Below, one piece after another: positions 7,127-18,562 of a DNA stretch of 26,037 bases. The first letter of the stretch is position 1. The number at the start of each line of letters is the position of its first letter. Position numbers and translations under genes: made by a program. The notes beneath the pieces are model-generated. The model did no database searches, was not told the origin of the DNA, and worked only from the letters and a program-made list of their open reading frames with translations. The stretch comes from a virus, in the IMG/VR virus record IMGVR_UViG_3300030118_000765, positions 1-26,037 of that record. The stretch is one strand, 5' to 3'.

Positions 7127-8782
7127 TTAAATTCTTCTAAACAACACACTCTTTCTTTCTAATTCCTGAGCAGATGTTACATCTTCTGCAACTACAAATG
7201 CTTTTACAGGTCTTTCTTGTTGTCCTGCTATTGCCTCTGTTAATTGGTTTATAGGTGATGCACCTACAACATTAAAACTAGGAGGTTGTATTTGAGGTAC
7301 TGGTGCTGTTCCTGCTCCTCCTGCTGTAACACCTCCTACACTAAGTACTGGTATTTCTGTTTGCCTTATAGCTCTAATCTGTTGGAAACCTGTAGCTAAT
7401 ACTAATGCAACATCTGCTGCTTTCTGAAAAGGTGTAACATTTAAAGGATTGTTTAATGCTTGTGCTGCACCTGCATATGTAGCTATTATTGCATTTGCTA
7501 TACCTAATGCTTTAGCTGCATTAGATCCTTCTGTTGCTAAACCTATACCTAAAGCTACAAATTTTTGAATTGTACCTAATTTTAATTTCTCTCCATCTTC
7601 TACAATTTCTCCAGTCTCATCTTCACTCTTTTTAGTTATCTCTGCAATAGCCTCTGCTTTAGATTTTTCTAATGCTATAACATCACCCCCAAACTTCTTA
7701 GCTTGTTCTATAAGAGCATCATATCTTTCTATTGCTTTTGTAACTAATAACTCAGTCTTAGCTTCTTCATTTGTAGCTAATGCCTCTCTTTGTGCTAAGA
7801 AAAATGCTTCTTCTTCTGCTAACTCTTTTTCTTCTTTTGCTTTATTTTCAGCAGCTATTTTATCTTTATTTGCTTTTTCTTCATTTTGCAATCCAATTAT
7901 TTGAGATGTTACTTCTTTTTGTTTTGTAAGTCTAGCTGTCTCTAATTGTATCAACTCTGCTTTTAATTGTGCCTCTAATTCTAGATCTTCTTTTGTAGAA
8001 CCTGATAATTTGTTTTGTTCTTGTACTACATTTAATCTAGTTCTAGCTAAAGCTATTTCTTTGTTTGTGATTTCTTCTTCTAATGAACTAGCCTCTTGTA
8101 AAAATCCTATTCTTTCTTCTAATGTAAAGTTTGTTCTATCAACTGCTTTTTCTAAAAGGTCTGCTCTTTCTCTATCTGCTATAGCTCTATCTACAAGTAA
8201 GTTTCTTTGCATTTTATCAGCTTTTGCTGTTGCATCTGCAAGTTCACCTGCTATCTTTAATTCTTTTCTAGTTTCTTCTCCAAAGTTCTTAATACCATCT
8301 GTAGCATCTTTAAAACTATTTTTAATACCATCTACTGCCTCAGCAGCTCCTTCTGCATCACCTCTAAATCTAGCTCCTAGATATTTACCAACATTTAGTA
8401 TAGCATTACCAAAACTTGACATTATATCAGTAACATTACCTACAACTACACCAATCTGTTGTGTTATTTTTAAAAATTTGTTTTGACCTTCTTCTGAACT
8501 TGTAAATGCTGCTGTAACTGCTCCTATAGCTAATGCAAATGCACCTATACCTGTAGCTATTAATACACCTTTTAAAGTTCTAAGGCTTTTTATTGCTGTT
8601 CCAATAGATTTTTTTACATTATTAAACTGAGTAACTAGACCACCAGTTAATACATCACCAGTCTCACTAACATCCTCCATGTTAGTTTGCATTACACTAA
8701 GCTCCTCATTAGTTTCCTCTAAGTCAGCATTAGCTTTTTGGTTGTCTACCTCTATGCTTATTTTATACTTACCTATTTTCAT
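7127..8782 (-). CDS. Tail tape measure protein
   Basis: A 551-aa protein with a hydrophobic stretch near residues 72-92 (LIATGIGAFALAIGAVTAAF). A long, highly helical Glu/Lys/Ala/Leu-rich middle follows (for example ALARTRLNVVQEQNKLSGST and ENKAKEEKELAEEEAFFLAQ). A second Ala-rich hydrophobic part lies at roughly 405-470, with a Gly/Pro-rich region near the end. This is the usual design of tape measure proteins, which set tail length and help DNA cross the envelope. At roughly 0.15 nm per residue it would correspond to a tail near 80 nm, an inference. It starts by TAATG coupling to a 49-aa gene. It is short for the family but complete. Confidence 0.78.
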   Translation of the reverse strand: MKIGKYKISIEVDNQKANADLEETNEELSVMQTNMEDVSETGDVLTGGLVTQFNNVKKSIGTAIKSLRTLKGVLIATGIGAFALAIGAVTAAFTSSEEGQNKFLKITQQIGVVVGNVTDIMSSFGNAILNVGKYLGARFRGDAEGAAEAVDGIKNSFKDATDGIKNFGEETRKELKIAGELADATAKADKMQRNLLVDRAIADRERADLLEKAVDRTNFTLEERIGFLQEASSLEEEITNKEIALARTRLNVVQEQNKLSGSTKEDLELEAQLKAELIQLETARLTKQKEVTSQIIGLQNEEKANKDKIAAENKAKEEKELAEEEAFFLAQREALATNEEAKTELLVTKAIERYDALIEQAKKFGGDVIALEKSKAEAIAEITKKSEDETGEIVEDGEKLKLGTIQKFVALGIGLATEGSNAAKALGIANAIIATYAGAAQALNNPLNVTPFQKAADVALVLATGFQQIRAIRQTEIPVLSVGGVTAGGAGTAPVPQIQPPSFNVVGASPINQLTEAIAGQQERPVKAFVVAEDVTSAQELERKSVLFRRI

Positions 8783-8936: not shown

Positions 8937-9551
8937 TTATATAATACTTAATTGTTGATTTTTTAATTTTTGCTCATATTCTTTATGATCAGCTCCTCCA
9001 CTCCAAGTGTTTTCTCTCCACCAAGATGTAATTATGTATTTAGTACCCTTTGTAACTTCTTCACCACTATGTTGCATGTATTCATTTGGCACACCATGCT
9101 GTAAATTGTTCCACATAACAGCTTTACATGCTAATGGTTTTATTTCTTTTTTTAAAAATGGAAAGTTAGTTGTGCCTCCTTCAAAATTGTCATTTAAATA
9201 CAGCATAAATGTGTATGTTCTATTACCACTTGCTAAGCAGTTTCTATCATAACTGTCTCCTTTAAAGTAATCATGATGAGATTTAAAGTATTGACCTTTT
9301 GCATACCTCTGTCCTTGTAGTGATTCTCCTTTATGTAAAGGTTGTCCTAAATATTTAGCTATTCTTTTGTGTAATGTTTCTACTGTAGGATCATTAGATA
9401 CTAAATTAGATGTATATGATGTTCTTGCATTGTGGTACTCATTCATTTCTTTACCTGTTCCAACAACCATTGACTTACTTGCATATCTATCTATCATATT
9501 CATAAGATATTTAGCTTCTTCTGATGTTATAAAATTTTCTATTTCTTTCAT
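8937..9551 (-). CDS. 2-oxoglutarate/Fe(II) dioxygenase, prolyl 4-hydroxylase type
   Basis: A 204-aa enzyme from the ATG at 9551, which overlaps the stop of the giant tail protein (TAATG). A longer frame up to 9605 exists but would overlap further and lacks support. The jelly-roll signature is complete: HxD iron ligands at His92-His93-Asp94 (YFKSHHDYF), a GGTTNFP strand near 125-131, the distal His161 (MQHSGEEV) and Lys171 for 2-oxoglutarate (KGTKYIITSWWRE). The family hydroxylates proline or other residues of proteins using O2, Fe(II) and 2-oxoglutarate. In this position a virion protein is a likely target; the preceding gene encodes an 11-proline run. Enzyme class is confident; the substrate is inference. 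Confidence 0.85.
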   Translation of the reverse strand: MKEIENFITSEEAKYLMNMIDRYASKSMVVGTGKEMNEYHNARTSYTSNLVSNDPTVETLHKRIAKYLGQPLHKGESLQGQRYAKGQYFKSHHDYFKGDSYDRNCLASGNRTYTFMLYLNDNFEGGTTNFPFLKKEIKPLACKAVMWNNLQHGVPNEYMQHSGEEVTKGTKYIITSWWRENTWSGGADHKEYEQKLKNQQLSII

Positions 9552-11770
9552 TATGGACAGTTTATTGTAAATGGACCAGTTAATGTTTGTGCTGTTGAGT
9601 TCCAAAAGTAGTAGTTAGCACCTTGATACTCTGCAAAATACTGATCTGTTGGTAACAATGTGCTACAATTAGCATCACTATATACTTTACTAGCTGTAGG
9701 TAATGTACTAGCATTTAAATATACAGTTCTTTGTAATCCACTACACAAGTCAGTAGGTGCTGTACCTTTAAACAACTGTACTGTAAAACATTGTTGTGCA
9801 GGTGGTGGTGGAGGTGGTGGTGGAGGAGGAGGTACTGTTGATTTACAATCTAAACAGTTAGCTCCTGCTGTTGATTCTTCTGTGAAAAAGTTAAAGTTAG
9901 AACTATTAAGCTCTGTTGGATTCACACCTTGATGATTACTATCCCATCTATAACACTCAAAACTACCTACTGGCTGTATTACCCACCATGTACCAATAGC
10001 TAATGTACTATAAACATCTATAATTAGACCTGTAGGATCATCACAACTAATAAACCTTGCATAATATGTAGTACCAGCAGGTGGTTGTGGTGGTGTTACA
10101 GGTGTAAGACAGTTATTACCTCCATCAGGACATGCTACACCTACTTGTGTTCCTCCTGTTATCACATCTGCTCCTACAACTTGATACCTAGTACCTTGTA
10201 CAGTAGCTGTATCATTAGGATTAAAAGATATATCATTAACTGTTTGTAGAGATAAAAAGCCAGTTGTTGAATCACTACATCTTTGTAATGCCCAATACTG
10301 AGTACTACCTGAAAGAGTTGGACATCCAGTCTGACCAGTATTTGTTACTGTTCCTACACTTGCATATCCTGCACCTGATACACCTACAGTAACAACTGTA
10401 TAAGGCATACCACATGAATCTTGTACTCTATCTCCTACACTTAATGATATACTCCCTGTACCACTTGTACTTTGTCCAGTTCTATATCCAGTTTGTAAAG
10501 TATAACATTGTCTAAGCTCATAAAAAGTAGGACATGCTGTATCAGGAGTTGTTACAACATTACCAACTTGTATACCACTACCTGTTGTACCTAAAACTTT
10601 ATATCTTGGTCCTGACAAACTACCTGATGCAACAATATCATTTACTGCTAATGAGATTTGTGTAGTATCTTGTGTAGATATATAATTTGTCTGTCCTGTA
10701 CTACATTGTTCTAACTGATAATATAAAACATTTGTACATGGACTAGAAGGACAACCTAGCACATTTAGATCTGTAATCTGTCCAATAGGATTTGGATATA
10801 AAATTGTATTAGATGTTGTACCTGTAACTGTATAACACTTACCTGTACTGTTATCTTGAACTCTTGATGCACCTGTTACATTTGGATTTACTGTTAAGTT
10901 TGGTATATCTGTAGTAGTTGTTGCTGTTCTTACAGTAGTAACAGTATCACAATCTCTTAATAAATAGTAGTAAGTTATTGTTGTACAGGAACATGCAGAT
11001 AATGTATCTAAGTCAATAGCTGCTACTTGATTTGTTGTATTTTGTATCATGTAACATGTGCCATTATATTCTAATGTTGTGTTATTTCTAGTACTTGATG
11101 CACTATATCCATAATAAGAGATAGAGGTTTGACCACATTCTACCATAGCATAGTAATATGTAACACATGCACTTGAGTTTAGACTATCAATGTCTATTGT
11201 TCCTGTATTACCTCCTGATGGTCCTATAACATATGTTTGATTCTGATAACTAACAGTACCTGATTTTGAACTATTACTACTAAAACCATACAATGTTGCA
11301 CCATTTCCAGTCAAACATGGATTCAATGAATAGTAATATGCTACTGTATTTCCTGTACATGTAAGTTGAGCAGGACTAGGAGTAGATGTAATTGTAACAC
11401 TAGGTACTGTATCTTCTGATGTAGCATTTCTTACTACATATTTTACTGTATTATCAAACACCTGTTGTGTTATTGCATATGTAGGATTACCTACTTCTGT
11501 AGATGTTCTGTAATTTGTTGAATTATCACTACACTTAGTTAGTCCATAGTACTGAGTTGCAGGTGGTGTTTGAGTTGTAGGACAATCTGTAAGACCTGTT
11601 GCTGATATTGCAACTTGTGTGTGTGTGTTTGGTACATTGTTTCCTACTACCTTATAGCTATTTCCTGATCCATCTTCTACTCTTGCATTGTTAGCTAAGT
11701 TTAAAATTGCTAAAGTTGATGCAGATTCAAATGTGTTATTAGGACTTGCACATTGATACAATGTTAGAAC
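9551..11770 (-). repeat. Array of about nine degenerate Cys-containing domains in the giant tail protein
   Basis: The 3' half of the giant tail gene encodes tandem units that share aromatic-x-L-x-x-C openings, a central G-x-x-Y-x-V/I strand and a Cys or CP at the end. Unit openings include LYQCASP, YYGLTKC, YYYSLNPC, YYYAMVEC, YYYLLRDC, YYQLEQC, FYELRQC and YWALQRC. Units are diverged at the protein level, so this is an old duplication array, not a recent DNA repeat. Unit borders were set by eye. Confidence 0.65.
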
Positions 11771-14928: not shown

Positions 14929-15443
14929 TATTTTGTTGTAAATTTTAAAAAGTTGTCTATGTCTAATTCATATTTGTCTATAAATTCATTTGGTAATTTC
15001 TTGTATGCTGCTTCAAATGCACTTGTAAAAAAGTAAGTAGGCTCTAGACCTTTCATAAATATAGATCTAGCAATTAGAAATGTTAGAGATTGTCTTTTAA
15101 CAAATCTACCTTTTGCATCTCTTGTACCTTTTAGTCCTCTTTTAATAACCCACTTATCTAATGATTTAGGTGGAGGCATCTTAGTAGTATACTTATATGT
15201 AGGTAAACTATACTTCCTTTTACCATATTTTTTTTTCTTACCATCTACACCTGCATCTTGATATGCTCCATAACCTTCCATTTCAAAGTCTAACTCAAAA
15301 GATTTAGGATTTACCTTTACATCACTTTTTAGAGATCTAGAAAGTTTACCTGATGCATTATGTTTTTTAAGGTTTTGTCTTGCACCTTTTATTACATTTC
15401 TTGCAAAGTCCTCTAATACTTTTTTTGTTTCTTCAAATTTCAT
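14928..15443 (-). CDS. Neck / tail-completion protein (HK97 gp10-like)
   Basis: 171 aa from the ATG at 15443 (MKFEETKKVLEDFARNVIKG), which overlaps the upstream stop (TAATG); a frame extension to a TTG at 15449 is less likely. The sequence is very basic. It has SGKLSRSLKSDVKVNPKSFE, a GYGAYQDAGVDG turn, PPPKSLDKWVIKRGLKGTRD and SLTFLIARSIFMKGLEPTYF. The last segment, LAxxIxxxGxxPxxFF, is characteristic of gp10/gp16-like neck proteins that join head and tail. The neighbour upstream looks like a tail terminator, as in many siphophages. The family resemblance is good but not verified by alignment. Confidence 0.65.
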   Translation of the reverse strand: MKFEETKKVLEDFARNVIKGARQNLKKHNASGKLSRSLKSDVKVNPKSFELDFEMEGYGAYQDAGVDGKKKKYGKRKYSLPTYKYTTKMPPPKSLDKWVIKRGLKGTRDAKGRFVKRQSLTFLIARSIFMKGLEPTYFFTSAFEAAYKKLPNEFIDKYELDIDNFLKFTTK

Positions 15444-15913
15444 TAGCAATAATCTAAGTCATTAAATATTTCTAGTGTAAATGATGTAGCCCATCCTGCT
15501 AATACATTCTCAAATCTATCAAAAAATGGTTCACATGTAGCATCACCTATTAGTTGATAGCCATCTTGATACATCTGACCTTTTCTAAGTTTTGTAACAA
15601 GTTTATTAGAAACTGCAAGTTGTGTGTTTAAAATATCATGTGTATTGCTGTTGCCTAAAAATAGATCATCAACAAAATCTTTTGTAGTATCTATTTGTTC
15701 CATTGTCAAAATAGTAAAGCTAAACTGCATAGTTTTTTCTGCATGTACTACATTCTCTATTATCATATGTGCAAGAGGAAAGATTGTTTGTTTACCTAGA
15801 TCTACATCTGTTATATCTCCAAATGTCATTGTTTTTATACTAGGATTGTTAATTAGTTCATCTTTTATTTGTTCAACTACTAAATAAAATCCTCTTTGTG
15901 ATTTATCTGCCAT
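15443..15913 (-). CDS. Putative tail terminator protein
   Basis: A 156-aa protein (MADKSQRGFYLVVEQIKDEL) with GDITDVDLGKQTIFPLAHMI, FSFTILTMEQIDTTKDF and FENVLAGWATSFTLEIFNDL. Alternating helices and strands of this size, placed between the tail chaperone and the gp10-like gene, resemble tail terminators, which cap the tail tube and bind the head. I know similar proteins as conserved but unnamed genes in Bacteroidota phages. Its first 11 bases overlap the end of the -1 frame extension of the tail chaperone gene. The function is from context and size. Confidence 0.55.
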   Translation of the reverse strand: MADKSQRGFYLVVEQIKDELINNPSIKTMTFGDITDVDLGKQTIFPLAHMIIENVVHAEKTMQFSFTILTMEQIDTTKDFVDDLFLGNSNTHDILNTQLAVSNKLVTKLRKGQMYQDGYQLIGDATCEPFFDRFENVLAGWATSFTLEIFNDLDYC

Positions 15914-16645
15914 GCTTTCTTTTTATTCTTTGATTCTCCAATGTTTGTTTCTCATTTACAAATTCTAAATACATTAAAATTTTGTGTAATCTCTGTTCTG
16001 AGATATGTTCAAATCTTGTAACATCTCCTTGAGCTGCTTGGTAAAATGATGTATACCAACCCCATTTTCTGCTAAACCCTGCTTCAGATGTGTATGCTCC
16101 TTCAGAATCCCCTTCTGCAAATAGTCCATCATAACTACTGACAACTCTTTGCCTAAATTCATTAAAAAAAAAACAGCACCTAGTGCATATGCTAGTGGCA
16201 TTTCTTTCATAGTATCATCTGTAATAGCTTTATATTCCTTTATGTTATATTTGCCTCTTACACTAATATCTACTGGTCTATATAAAACCTGCATAGCTTT
16301 ATGCATTTCTTGCCAATCTCCTAGATATGAATCTAGATCTACAAATTCACCAAAACTAATTTCATCTAAGTTTGGTATAAATCCATAGTTCACTCCATTT
16401 AAGTGAAACTGTCTTTTTAATTTCTGATCTTGATCAAACATAAATCCTAGATCTGTTACTATATCTTGTACATCTTTCCATCTCATCTTCATAACATAAT
16501 CTAGTCTTGTCTTACAAAAGATCTCTATCATTTTTTGTGCAATAAAGGTTTCATCCTCATTGTCCTTTTCCATTTTTAAGTATTTCTGATACTGCCCTAA
16601 TGTTATTTCTGTTAGGTTCTCAGGTATCTTTAGTGTTAGTTCCAT
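15903..16645 (-). CDS. Tail assembly chaperone, -1 frameshift fusion product (gpGT-like)
   Basis: Shifting -1 at the T10 run gives a 247-aa protein: residues 1-161 shared with the zero-frame product, then 86 new residues read in the other frame from 16163 to the TAA at 15903-15905. The extension contains FSRKWGWYTSFYQAAQGDVT, RFEHISEQRLHKILMYLEFV and LENQRIKRKHGR. I recognise this Trp-Gly-Trp-Tyr...GD-x-x-RFE pattern from Bacteroidota phages as the second half of a tail chaperone. It stays open for 86 codons, covers the gap before the next gene and overlaps that gene by 11 bases. Fusion chaperones of this kind are well established in siphophages. Whether slippage is ribosomal or transcriptional cannot be told. 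Confidence 0.75.
15974..16645 (-). CDS. Tail assembly chaperone, zero-frame product
   Basis: 223 aa (MELTLKIPENLTEITLGQYQ) with KMIEIFCKTRLDYVMKMRWK, VNYGFIPNLDEISFGEFVDL and MHKAMQVLYRPVDI, a pattern I know as a conserved gene in Bacteroidota phages. The position at the head of the tail block and the internal slippery site identify it as the gpG-type chaperone, which holds the tape measure protein during tail assembly. The zero-frame stop lies 60 bases before the next gene. It is the first gene of the late operon, next to a divergent plus-strand promoter. No good consensus promoter of its own was found. Confidence 0.68.
   Translation of the reverse strand: MELTLKIPENLTEITLGQYQKYLKMEKDNEDETFIAQKMIEIFCKTRLDYVMKMRWKDVQDIVTDLGFMFDQDQKLKRQFHLNGVNYGFIPNLDEISFGEFVDLDSYLGDWQEMHKAMQVLYRPVDISVRGKYNIKEYKAITDDTMKEMPLAYALGAVFFLMNLGKELSVVMMDYLQKGILKEHTHLKQGLAENGVGIHHFTKQLKEMLQDLNISQNRDYTKF
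16163..16182 (-). promoter_or_regulatory. Programmed -1 frameshift site
   Basis: On the minus strand the zero frame reads GTT TTT TTT TTA, so a canonical X XXY YYZ heptamer (T TTT TTA, bases 16169-16163) sits at the 3' end of a run of ten T. A TAGGTG motif ends 7 bases before the heptamer, a plausible position for a Shine-Dalgarno-like stimulator, although Bacteroidota ribosomes rely little on such pairing. I saw no strong stem-loop directly downstream. Confidence 0.75.
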
Positions 16646-16695: not shown

Positions 16696-16727
16696 TTTGG
16701 TGATATTATAATAATGTATTATATTTA
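16696..16727 (+). promoter_or_regulatory. Bacteroidota-type promoter of the plus-strand island
   Basis: TTTG at 16696-16699, a 20-base spacer and TATATTTA at 16720-16727 (7 of 8 matches to TAnnTTTG). Initiation would fall near 16732, only about 6 bases before the ATG at 16738. It points away from the minus-strand late operon. Confidence 0.65.
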
Positions 16728-16737
16728 CACTATAAAT

Positions 16738-16968
16738 ATGAAAAACATGAAAAATACATCTGAATTTATCCCAAAAACTGCTTTAGGAAAAGCAAAGAAA
16801 AATTACATAAAATACTTATTAGCTACTAACCAATCTAATATTATTGAAAAAACAATAGAGTGGGAAAAAGCTAATGCTGAATACTATCAAGATATTCCTG
16901 ATGATGTTGTTACAACATTTAATAAATATGGTTTACCTGAAATGAGTATTGAAAACCCTTTATTTTAA
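16738..16968 (+). CDS. Small unknown protein 1 of the plus-strand island
   Basis: 76 aa from the ATG at 16738 (MKNMKNTSEFIPKTALGKAK); the frame is open further upstream to 16714, but that start lies inside the promoter spacer. ATG at 16747 is another option. The protein has a Lys-rich first half (KAKKNYIKYLLATNQSNIIE) and an acidic second half with YYQDIPDDVVTTFNKYG. It is predicted to be helical, with no domain I recognise. It is the first of three tightly spaced genes on the strand opposite to nearly all others, which is typical of accessory cargo genes in phages. The function is unknown; possible roles include host take-over or defence evasion, with no direct evidence. Confidence 0.6.
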   Translation: MKNMKNTSEFIPKTALGKAKKNYIKYLLATNQSNIIEKTIEWEKANAEYYQDIPDDVVTTFNKYGLPEMSIENPLF

Positions 16969-16973
16969 TTATC

Positions 16974-17192
16974 ATGAAAAACACTATTATGAATAACTTA
17001 GAATATTTTTGGAATCATGAGTACAGACATTATCTTAGAGAGGCTAGACCTCATGAAAAAAATAGAATCAAAAATCTATTTATAAAAAACAACTTAGAGT
17101 TAGATGGAGAATCTGATGCACACTTAGACATTATTAAAAAGGTTCTGCCATTCTTTTTCAATCCTAATCTATTAAAAAAACATAGAATATAA
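16974..17192 (+). CDS. Small unknown protein 2 of the plus-strand island
   Basis: 72 aa (MKNTIMNNLEYFWNHEYRHY then LREARPHEKNRIKNLFIKNN), starting 5 bases after the previous stop; the ATG at 16989 is an alternative start. It is rich in aromatic, His and basic residues near the N-terminus, followed by an acidic turn (LDGESDAHLDI) and a Lys/Phe-rich end. No family is recognised. Its stop overlaps the ATG of the third gene (TAATG), indicating translational coupling. Confidence 0.6.
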   Translation: MKNTIMNNLEYFWNHEYRHYLREARPHEKNRIKNLFIKNNLELDGESDAHLDIIKKVLPFFFNPNLLKKHRI

Positions 17193-17341: not shown

Positions 17342-17409
17342 GCACATTTTATGTGTACAGGAGTGGAGGCTAAAGGTTGAGAACCTATTGTAAGTCTCCC
17401 TCCTTTTTT
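17342..17409 (+). terminator. Structured terminator or small RNA at the end of the plus-strand island
   Basis: Three nested or adjacent hairpins: CACAT-TTT-ATGTG (17343-17355); an outer 10-bp stem, GGAG-T-GGAGGC with GTCTCCCTCC, one bulged T (17360-17370 with 17394-17403); and inside its loop AGGTT-GAG-AACCT (17374-17386). Six T follow directly. It is oriented for the plus strand; the other strand lacks a U-tract. It separates the island from the convergent terL gene, whose stop lies in the T-run. The branched shape is more elaborate than a simple terminator, so an RNA with a role of its own is possible. Confidence 0.65.
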
Positions 17410-18562
17410 ATTTTATAGCATACCTTCCATAGTTAGGATAGGATAGTTTATGAACTACACTATATCTGAGTGCATCACAAAAGTGATTGTTAAGGTCTAG
17501 TGGTTTATTAGTAGGATTCCCATTTCTATCTTCTACATACTTATAGCTCTCTAGTTCTCTTATTGCATTAGTGCTATCTTTTGTTACATGTAGTTTGTAT
17601 CTTCTGATCATGTCTATTCCATAATTGATCTCATACTTCTTCTTGCCTTTTATGTTCCATCCCATTCTATAGATCTCCTCTATACTTTTAGGCTCACTAG
17701 AATCTGCAAAGATCTCATCCCTTCTATCTAATCCTAATGCTTCAAACTTATTAGCTAGATCCTGATTAGTTAATCCTGTCTCATATAAGATCTCTCTAAC
17801 ATACATGTTGTCTCCTTCTATGTAAGTCTCACACATACTAGATGGATCTGATGCAAACCCAAAGTCTAATCCTCTAGATATTAGTTTAGCTGTAGCAGGT
17901 ATGTCATTACAAATACTGAACTTAAATACAAGTGATCTGTTCTGTCCTCTTAGTCCTAATCCATATACTCTGTATAATTCAGGATCTGCATCTTTTAATC
18001 TCAGGAGTTCTTGTTTTAGAGTTTCTGATATAAATGGATTCTGCATAAATGTAGTAATGTGTAATGCACAATCAGGTCTCTCTAATACCTTGTCATATAT
18101 CCAATGAAACTGATCATGTGGATTGTAGTCTATAACAATCTGACCATCTGTTCTAAACAGTAACTGATTCCATGATTCTAGATCTACTTCATTAGCCTCA
18201 TTAACAAATAACAGATCTCTCTTTCTACCTCTAACTCTAGATCCCATATCTAAGCTAAAAAACTCTATTAGGTTTCCATTTAACCAATACTCATTAGATG
18301 TCTTGTTATGATAGATCTCTGAGTACAGGTCATTGTTCTTTAGGATCTCTAAAAAGTCTCTTAGAACTGATGCCTTTAAACTAGGTAGTGTTTTTCTACA
18401 TATAGATATAACTCTATTTGTATGCTTATTACAATAGCTAAATATTATCCAAATAAGTGTGTTGTATGTTTTACCTGATCTTGATGATCCTTGTAGTGCT
18501 ACTATTTTCTGTTTATTCTTTTCAAGTATATCAAATACAACATTAGTCTGTATCTGCTTCAT
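17408..18562 (-). CDS. terL: Terminase large subunit
   Basis: 384 aa with both domains of the phage DNA-packaging motor. The N-terminal ATPase has a Walker A motif GSSRSGKT (25-32) and a Walker B strand LLFVNEANEV (117-126) with catalytic Glu122. The C-terminal RNase H-like nuclease has GLDFGFASDPS (Asp233), IFADSSEP (Asp287) and NHFCDALRY (Asp363). It cuts concatemeric DNA and drives it into the prohead through the portal. The start overlaps the small-subunit gene by 20 bases. The stop lies in the T-run of the convergent terminator. The length is slightly short for the family but all motifs are present. Confidence 0.93.
   Translation of the reverse strand: MKQIQTNVVFDILEKNKQKIVALQGSSRSGKTYNTLIWIIFSYCNKHTNRVISICRKTLPSLKASVLRDFLEILKNNDLYSEIYHNKTSNEYWLNGNLIEFFSLDMGSRVRGRKRDLLFVNEANEVDLESWNQLLFRTDGQIVIDYNPHDQFHWIYDKVLERPDCALHITTFMQNPFISETLKQELLRLKDADPELYRVYGLGLRGQNRSLVFKFSICNDIPATAKLISRGLDFGFASDPSSMCETYIEGDNMYVREILYETGLTNQDLANKFEALGLDRRDEIFADSSEPKSIEEIYRMGWNIKGKKKYEINYGIDMIRRYKLHVTKDSTNAIRELESYKYVEDRNGNPTNKPLDLNNHFCDALRYSVVHKLSYPNYGRYAIK

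Follow-up and report, generated by a model that had tools for sequence, protein, structure and literature searches.

In phage lambda the ratio of the short to the long tail chaperone is critical, and it is set by the ribosome. Frameshifted tail chaperones are already well known; those reviewed have been described as ribosomal, and some shifts in tailed phages need no stimulator (PMC5009743). Another way of reading one gene in two frames is slippage on homopolymers. A large share of bacterial genomes shows selection against slippage at a run length of nine, and runs of nine A or nine T that are conserved in homologues have been proposed as a sign of functional slippage (PMC1088944). In the Bacteroidia, Shine-Dalgarno sequences go unrecognised by the ribosomes (PMC9976891), and F. 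johnsoniae shows poor frameshifting at prfB (PMC12421855).

The window, by which the whole stretch of analysed DNA is meant, comprises 26,037 nucleotides of a virus (IMG/VR record IMGVR_UViG_3300030118_000765, positions 1 to 26,037). As far as can be judged from sequence, one gene in the window probably yields two proteins, mainly by polymerase slippage at a run of nine or more T, and the pair would have a role like that of gpG and gpGT. Among the papers searched, none was found to describe such a case for phages of Flavobacteriia or Bacteroides.

The gene and its second half in the -1 frame

The features of the locus are as follows.

15974..16645, minus strand: short zero-frame ORF of 223 amino acids, the G-like product (ORF list; PHROG_32199, E 9e-17; homologues in more than 200 loci)
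16164..16173, minus strand: run of ten T (T10), the putative shift site, with a length of 9-11 kept in relatives
16166..16172, minus strand: zero-frame T_TTT_TTT, shared by all relatives whose site was mapped
16163..16169, minus strand: zero-frame T_TTT_TTA, the heptamer named in the earlier note, not universal
15903..16163, minus strand: -1 frame extension of 86 codons plus TAA, the T-like part of the fusion (phrog_38404, E 0.0025)
15974..16162, minus strand: zero-frame tail of 62 codons, overlapping the extension in the other frame (dual coding)
15443..15913, minus strand: next gene, 156 amino acids, tail-terminator-like by its position only
17408..18562, minus strand: terminase large subunit-like gene, upstream, by sequence character
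7127..8782, minus strand: tape-measure-like gene of 551 amino acids, by sequence character (phrog_32985, of unknown function)

Codons 157-162 of the 223-codon ORF read GCT GTT TTT TTT TTA ATG. The extension closes with TAA at 15905-15903; it covers the gap of 60 bases (15973-15914) and its end overlaps the next ORF, which starts at 15913, by 11 bases. The fusion is thus 161 + 86 = 247 amino acids long. The earlier note had given the open 86-codon extension, the gap, the overlap and both product lengths (223 and 247), and all these numbers were right; the two peptides that it quoted are both located in the extension.

It had also proposed a -1 frameshift at the T10 run into an unannotated second half. 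This frame relation is kept, with the extension at the same T run, at all 228 loci where the site was mapped. These include some duplicate contigs and reduce to 64 representatives at 70% identity or less. The sources are phage contigs, the Nonlabens phages P12024S and P12024L, and genome loci from Flagellimonas to Dysgonomonas. Searches with the extension and with the fusion rendered homologues both in viral contigs and in genomes. The extension by itself gave 56 relatives among viral contigs, and the -1 relation was found in 54 of the 55 close relatives with both halves. The lone exception (L011) has the two halves fused in frame and a T11 run near position 470, which is either a true variant or an assembly error.

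An earlier scan of genome contigs with a single sequence gave no match, whereas a profile of the fusion gave 13 bacterial genome records, including Flagellimonas, Galbibacter, Winogradskyella and Dysgonomonas. The same profile had at least 590 matches in viral contigs, 80 of which were listed. All 89 new analysable loci obtained after the fusion profile were in the -1 frame, as were all 80 further loci, mostly at 25-40% identity, from a second profile built on the Dysgonomonas copies. The search patterns of these scans were placed outside the T run, and the scans are therefore unselective for it. In the genomes of Flavobacteriaceae a match was found in 4 of 397, with T9 in the three that have both halves. 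Among cultured phages the gene pair was found in P12024S and P12024L, and none of the other phage records searched carries it. Their annotation treats the halves as two hypothetical genes with no relation to each other and should be corrected, as presumably should that of many contigs.

The annotation of P12024L, where the extension is listed as a separate gene of 55 amino acids, would agree with an extension that has its own start or with a decayed remnant. That the extension is either of these is very improbable, however. In the window neither ATG nor GTG nor TTG occurs between the point where its frame opens and codon 35, and an ATG is present in the extension of only 6 of the 64 representatives. 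It is conserved along its entire length, at about 25-95% identity, and its stop and the next ATG form a 4-nt overlap in 31 of the 64.

Synonymous change across relatives collapses where the frames overlap. In the first 17 overlap codons the synonymous differences in the extension frame are 0.105 (0.02 at 4-fold sites), compared with 0.37 in the front (0.42-0.47 at 4-fold sites) and 0.21 beyond the zero-frame stop (0.19 at 4-fold sites). Pairwise identity over these codons is 83% for the zero-frame tail and 76% for the extension, and dual coding of the tail is strongest over this stretch of about 17 codons. The tail is 53-66 codons long in most representatives. Given the extension protein, the chance of the zero frame staying open as far as it does is 0.003-0.07 per sequence tested, and 0.14 for the short tail of P12024L. 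The short and the extended product both appear to be under selection, and these comparisons strongly support a conserved short product and, equally, a programmed -1 frameshift into a second half that is conserved but had gone unannotated. Frame relation, conservation and dual-frame constraint are all directly supported. A sequencing error or a pseudogene is ruled out by the conservation in hundreds of loci together with the dual-frame constraint.

Length of the T run and the mechanism of the frame change

The run is T9 in 141 of the 228 loci, T10 in 85 and T11 in 2, while T7 and T8 are absent. These counts leave out two plasmid records whose runs are T7 and T8, which were taken for assemblies with homopolymer errors. 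The records L233 (CP045836.1, Lysinibacillus) and L234 (NZ_CP040811.1, Escherichia fergusonii) contain the same 'plasmid' of 66-67 kb. They are 99.6% identical across 6.2 kb, with 19 gaps, and carry a copy of the frameshift gene like those of Bacteroidota phages amid fragmented ORFs. This 'plasmid' is probably phage DNA that contaminated two assemblies prone to error.

A T11 run with the halves fused in frame, as in L011, is what would be seen if the run were a phase-variable tract, with DNA length changes toggling the fusion between phage genomes. Such toggling predicts a mixture of states, but every locus except L011 is in the -1 state and both frames of the overlap are under constraint. Moreover, homopolymer length is the least reliable feature of an assembly, as near-identical copies with T7 and T8 illustrate. 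We regard phase variation as scarcely credible and a frame change during gene expression as the preferred reading.

The flanks of the run are variable. The codon before it is GTT, CTT, ATT, TTT, GCT, AGT or AAT, or GGT in L240, and the codon after it, which is TTA in the window, can be TTG, TAC, TAT, TGG, CTG and others. The heptamer T_TTT_TTA, present at 16169-16163 as the earlier note had it, occurs in only part of the relatives and is ruled out as the conserved one; T_TTT_TTT, one codon earlier, is universal. The phase of the run differs by lineage (NTT TTT TTT TNN, NNT TTT TTT TTN or TTT TTT TTT NNN). When the preceding codon contributes one T (GCT, AGT, AAT, or GGT in L240), the next codon supplies two or three, and when the following codon contributes none (CTG), the preceding codon is TTT. 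When the flanks were shuffled 20,000 times among the 64 representatives, every shuffle contained short runs, with a mean of 6.8, a figure that is weakened by relatedness among the representatives. On a tree the flanks have changed at least 10 and at least 12 times and the run has never fallen below nine; the compensated flank changes number only about six, and an independent-pairs/sign test is not significant. The flanking amino acids fix much of the run length, so the length argument depends on the joint variation of the flanks.

Long runs are rare in the other genes at these loci. In 253 kb of such genes there is one run of nine or more T compared with 5.6 expected from codon shuffling, and there are five runs of nine or more A compared with 22 expected; T7 and T8 are also depleted. 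The window has one other run of nine in its coding sequence, an A9 at 15236-15228 that codes for Lys residues in a 173-aa gene two genes downstream.

Other signals for a frameshift were sought around the run. Downstream folding has a mean z of -0.2 compared with -0.27 for an upstream control, and no fold is conserved (pseudoknots not modelled). A Shine-Dalgarno-like motif (of the GGAG/AGGA/GAGG type) was found in just 4 of 66 representatives and is not conserved. The sequence TAGGTG, which had been pointed out 7 nt upstream of the heptamer, is present there in the window, but as a Shine-Dalgarno stimulator it is ruled out by this lack of conservation. In 50 of the 64 representatives the +1 frame, entered on loss of one T, runs into a stop after at most 3 codons, partly because of a conserved TTTAGG that is also used by both coding frames.

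Tandem tRNA slippage requires seven bases in phase, and the RNA-DNA hybrid has a length near nine. Slippage of tRNAs gives no reason for two extra Ts that are placed interchangeably, and a run of nine or more thus favours the polymerase. The strict run length and the absence of other signals, both directly supported, favour transcriptional slippage over ribosomal shifting. Polymerase slippage had been raised as an aside in the earlier note, and on this evidence it is the better mechanism for such a run length at a site where neither a fold nor a Shine-Dalgarno motif is conserved.

The same two products might also be made by ribosomal -1 frameshifting, with tandem tRNA slippage on U_UUU_UUU and with the longer run as a by-product of codons and amino acids. 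A canonical T_TTT_TTT in phase is present in every mapped locus, each T9 run included, and the run encodes a conserved Phe-Phe in the zero frame. Known tail-chaperone frameshifts are ribosomal, some of them without stimulators (PMC5009743). However, seven Ts would suffice for the ribosome, yet none of the 228 loci has fewer than nine and the extra Ts lie upstream or downstream interchangeably. Neither a stem-loop nor a Shine-Dalgarno sequence is conserved, and the host group rarely uses Shine-Dalgarno pairing (PMC9976891, PMC12421855). Ribosomal shifting as the main mechanism is a serious candidate, albeit an unlikely one.

With slippage by the polymerase as the preferred mechanism, faithful reading would give the 223-aa product. 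The host RNA polymerase would stutter on the run of nine or more T, so that some of the transcripts gain one extra U, and ordinary translation of these would enter the -1 frame and give the 247-aa product, with the 86-residue domain in place of the zero-frame tail. Ribosomal slippage on U_UUU_UUU may contribute. The pair would act like gpG and gpGT of lambda, the short form abundant and the long form scarce, as chaperones of the tape measure and the tail tube protein during tail assembly. We infer polymerase rather than ribosome slippage, and likewise the product ratio and the chaperone role.

That Bacteroidota phages whose hosts range from Flavobacteriaceae to Dysgonomonas produce their tail chaperone pair by programmed polymerase slippage, and not by the ribosomal frameshift of lambda and many other long-tailed phages, is a broader proposal, and on the sequences compared here we find it evenly balanced. 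If it is true, a whole phage lineage sets its chaperone ratio by RNA polymerase stuttering, with the same outcome from a different machine, possibly because Bacteroidia ribosomes skip Shine-Dalgarno pairing and shift poorly. A different solution may exist in Flavobacterium phage 6H (L232, 10000-10927, minus strand), where gp10, a structural relative, ends soon after TGT TTT TTC TAT (only T6) and coding appears to continue downstream in other frames.

Protein function and gene neighbourhood

Both halves have matches in families of unknown function, the front in PHROG_32199 and the extension in phrog_38404. Searches of the proteins in Pfam and NCBIfam gave no match, and phrog_166 ('tail protein') was matched weakly by 9 of 60 homologues. 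The AlphaFold model of the short product has a pLDDT of mostly 80-92 over the first 160 residues, and its last 45 are not confident. For the L011 fusion the model is poor, as no joint alignment of fronts and extensions could be made. Structure comparison with the PDB gave no fold match, which is no sign of a new fold. Among predicted viral proteins (BFVD) there was a weak match, E 3e-3, to an entry named 'Tail assembly chaperone protein'; other matches were to P12024S, many unnamed phage proteins and Flavobacterium phage 6H.

From terL the gene order runs through the frameshift gene, a pair of small genes and a pair of long tail genes to the tape-measure-like gene. It is shared by Galbibacter (L067). 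An additional gene precedes the tape-measure-like gene in the window, where five ORFs separate the latter from the frameshift gene. In neither of the two is the frameshift gene directly upstream of the tape-measure-like gene; the two adjoin only in Dysgonomonas. The annotation of P12024L has terL followed by the frameshift gene. Two small ORFs (84 and 72 aa) lie between the terminase and frameshift genes of the window, at 16714-17192 on the plus strand, opposing the direction of the surrounding operon. The tail module of the window also includes a 2-oxoglutarate oxygenase-like gene (8937-9605, 222 aa, by sequence character) between a 1465-aa tail gene and the tape-measure-like gene.

The Dysgonomonas loci have peculiarities of their own. 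In L070 (4946-12162) the frameshift, tape-measure-like and portal-like genes are scattered in both orientations amid lipoprotein-like genes, one of which has repeats EVYNSYSSDISQLVYTIRPYKDNF. The element is phage-derived and odd, as are those in L068, L069, L071 and L072.

The name 'tail chaperone', used in the earlier note, is favoured by the layout, the tail module and the weak structural match, but not by Pfam or NCBIfam, where there is no match, nor by a place beside the tape-measure-like gene in the window. The frameshift and both products could be real while the two forms of the protein serve some other structural or assembly role. In the window the gene directly follows the terminase and is not beside the tape-measure-like gene, and no chaperone family is matched. 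On the other hand, the two-product layout is like that of G/GT with the tail module downstream, the weak BFVD match (E 3e-3) is to a protein named as a tail assembly chaperone, and in Dysgonomonas the neighbour is tape-measure-like. A protein of another kind is therefore doubtful, and a G/GT-like tail assembly chaperone pair is the best reading, a plausible one given the layout, the tail module and the one structural match.

Comparison with known systems

Like gpG and gpGT of lambda, the gene described here has two products with a common front, an extension in the -1 frame and a place in the tail module, and like these and similar chaperones it comes with no conserved stimulatory structure that we could find. 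Unlike the 7-nt ribosomal heptamer of lambda G/GT, its site is a T9-T11 run with a strict minimum length; the dual-coded overlap is long, mostly 53-66 codons compared with a few in lambda, and the gene follows terL instead of directly preceding the tape measure. A sequence relation to G/GT is undetectable.

Genes with known slippage, such as Thermus dnaX, Shigella mxiE and IS transposases (PMC1088944, PMC5009743), also have a homopolymer run of at least nine bases with a conserved length, an alternative frame that yields a conserved product, and few such runs elsewhere. The present gene, a candidate for such slippage, differs from them in that it belongs to a phage tail region, and the frameshifts of tail chaperones are described in the literature as ribosomal.

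The closest counterparts are the pairs in P12024S and P12024L (PHROG_32199 and phrog_38404). Unlike the single gene of the window they are annotated as two unrelated genes, and their identity to the window is about 28%, but front and extension are homologous, follow in the same order and meet at a T9 site.
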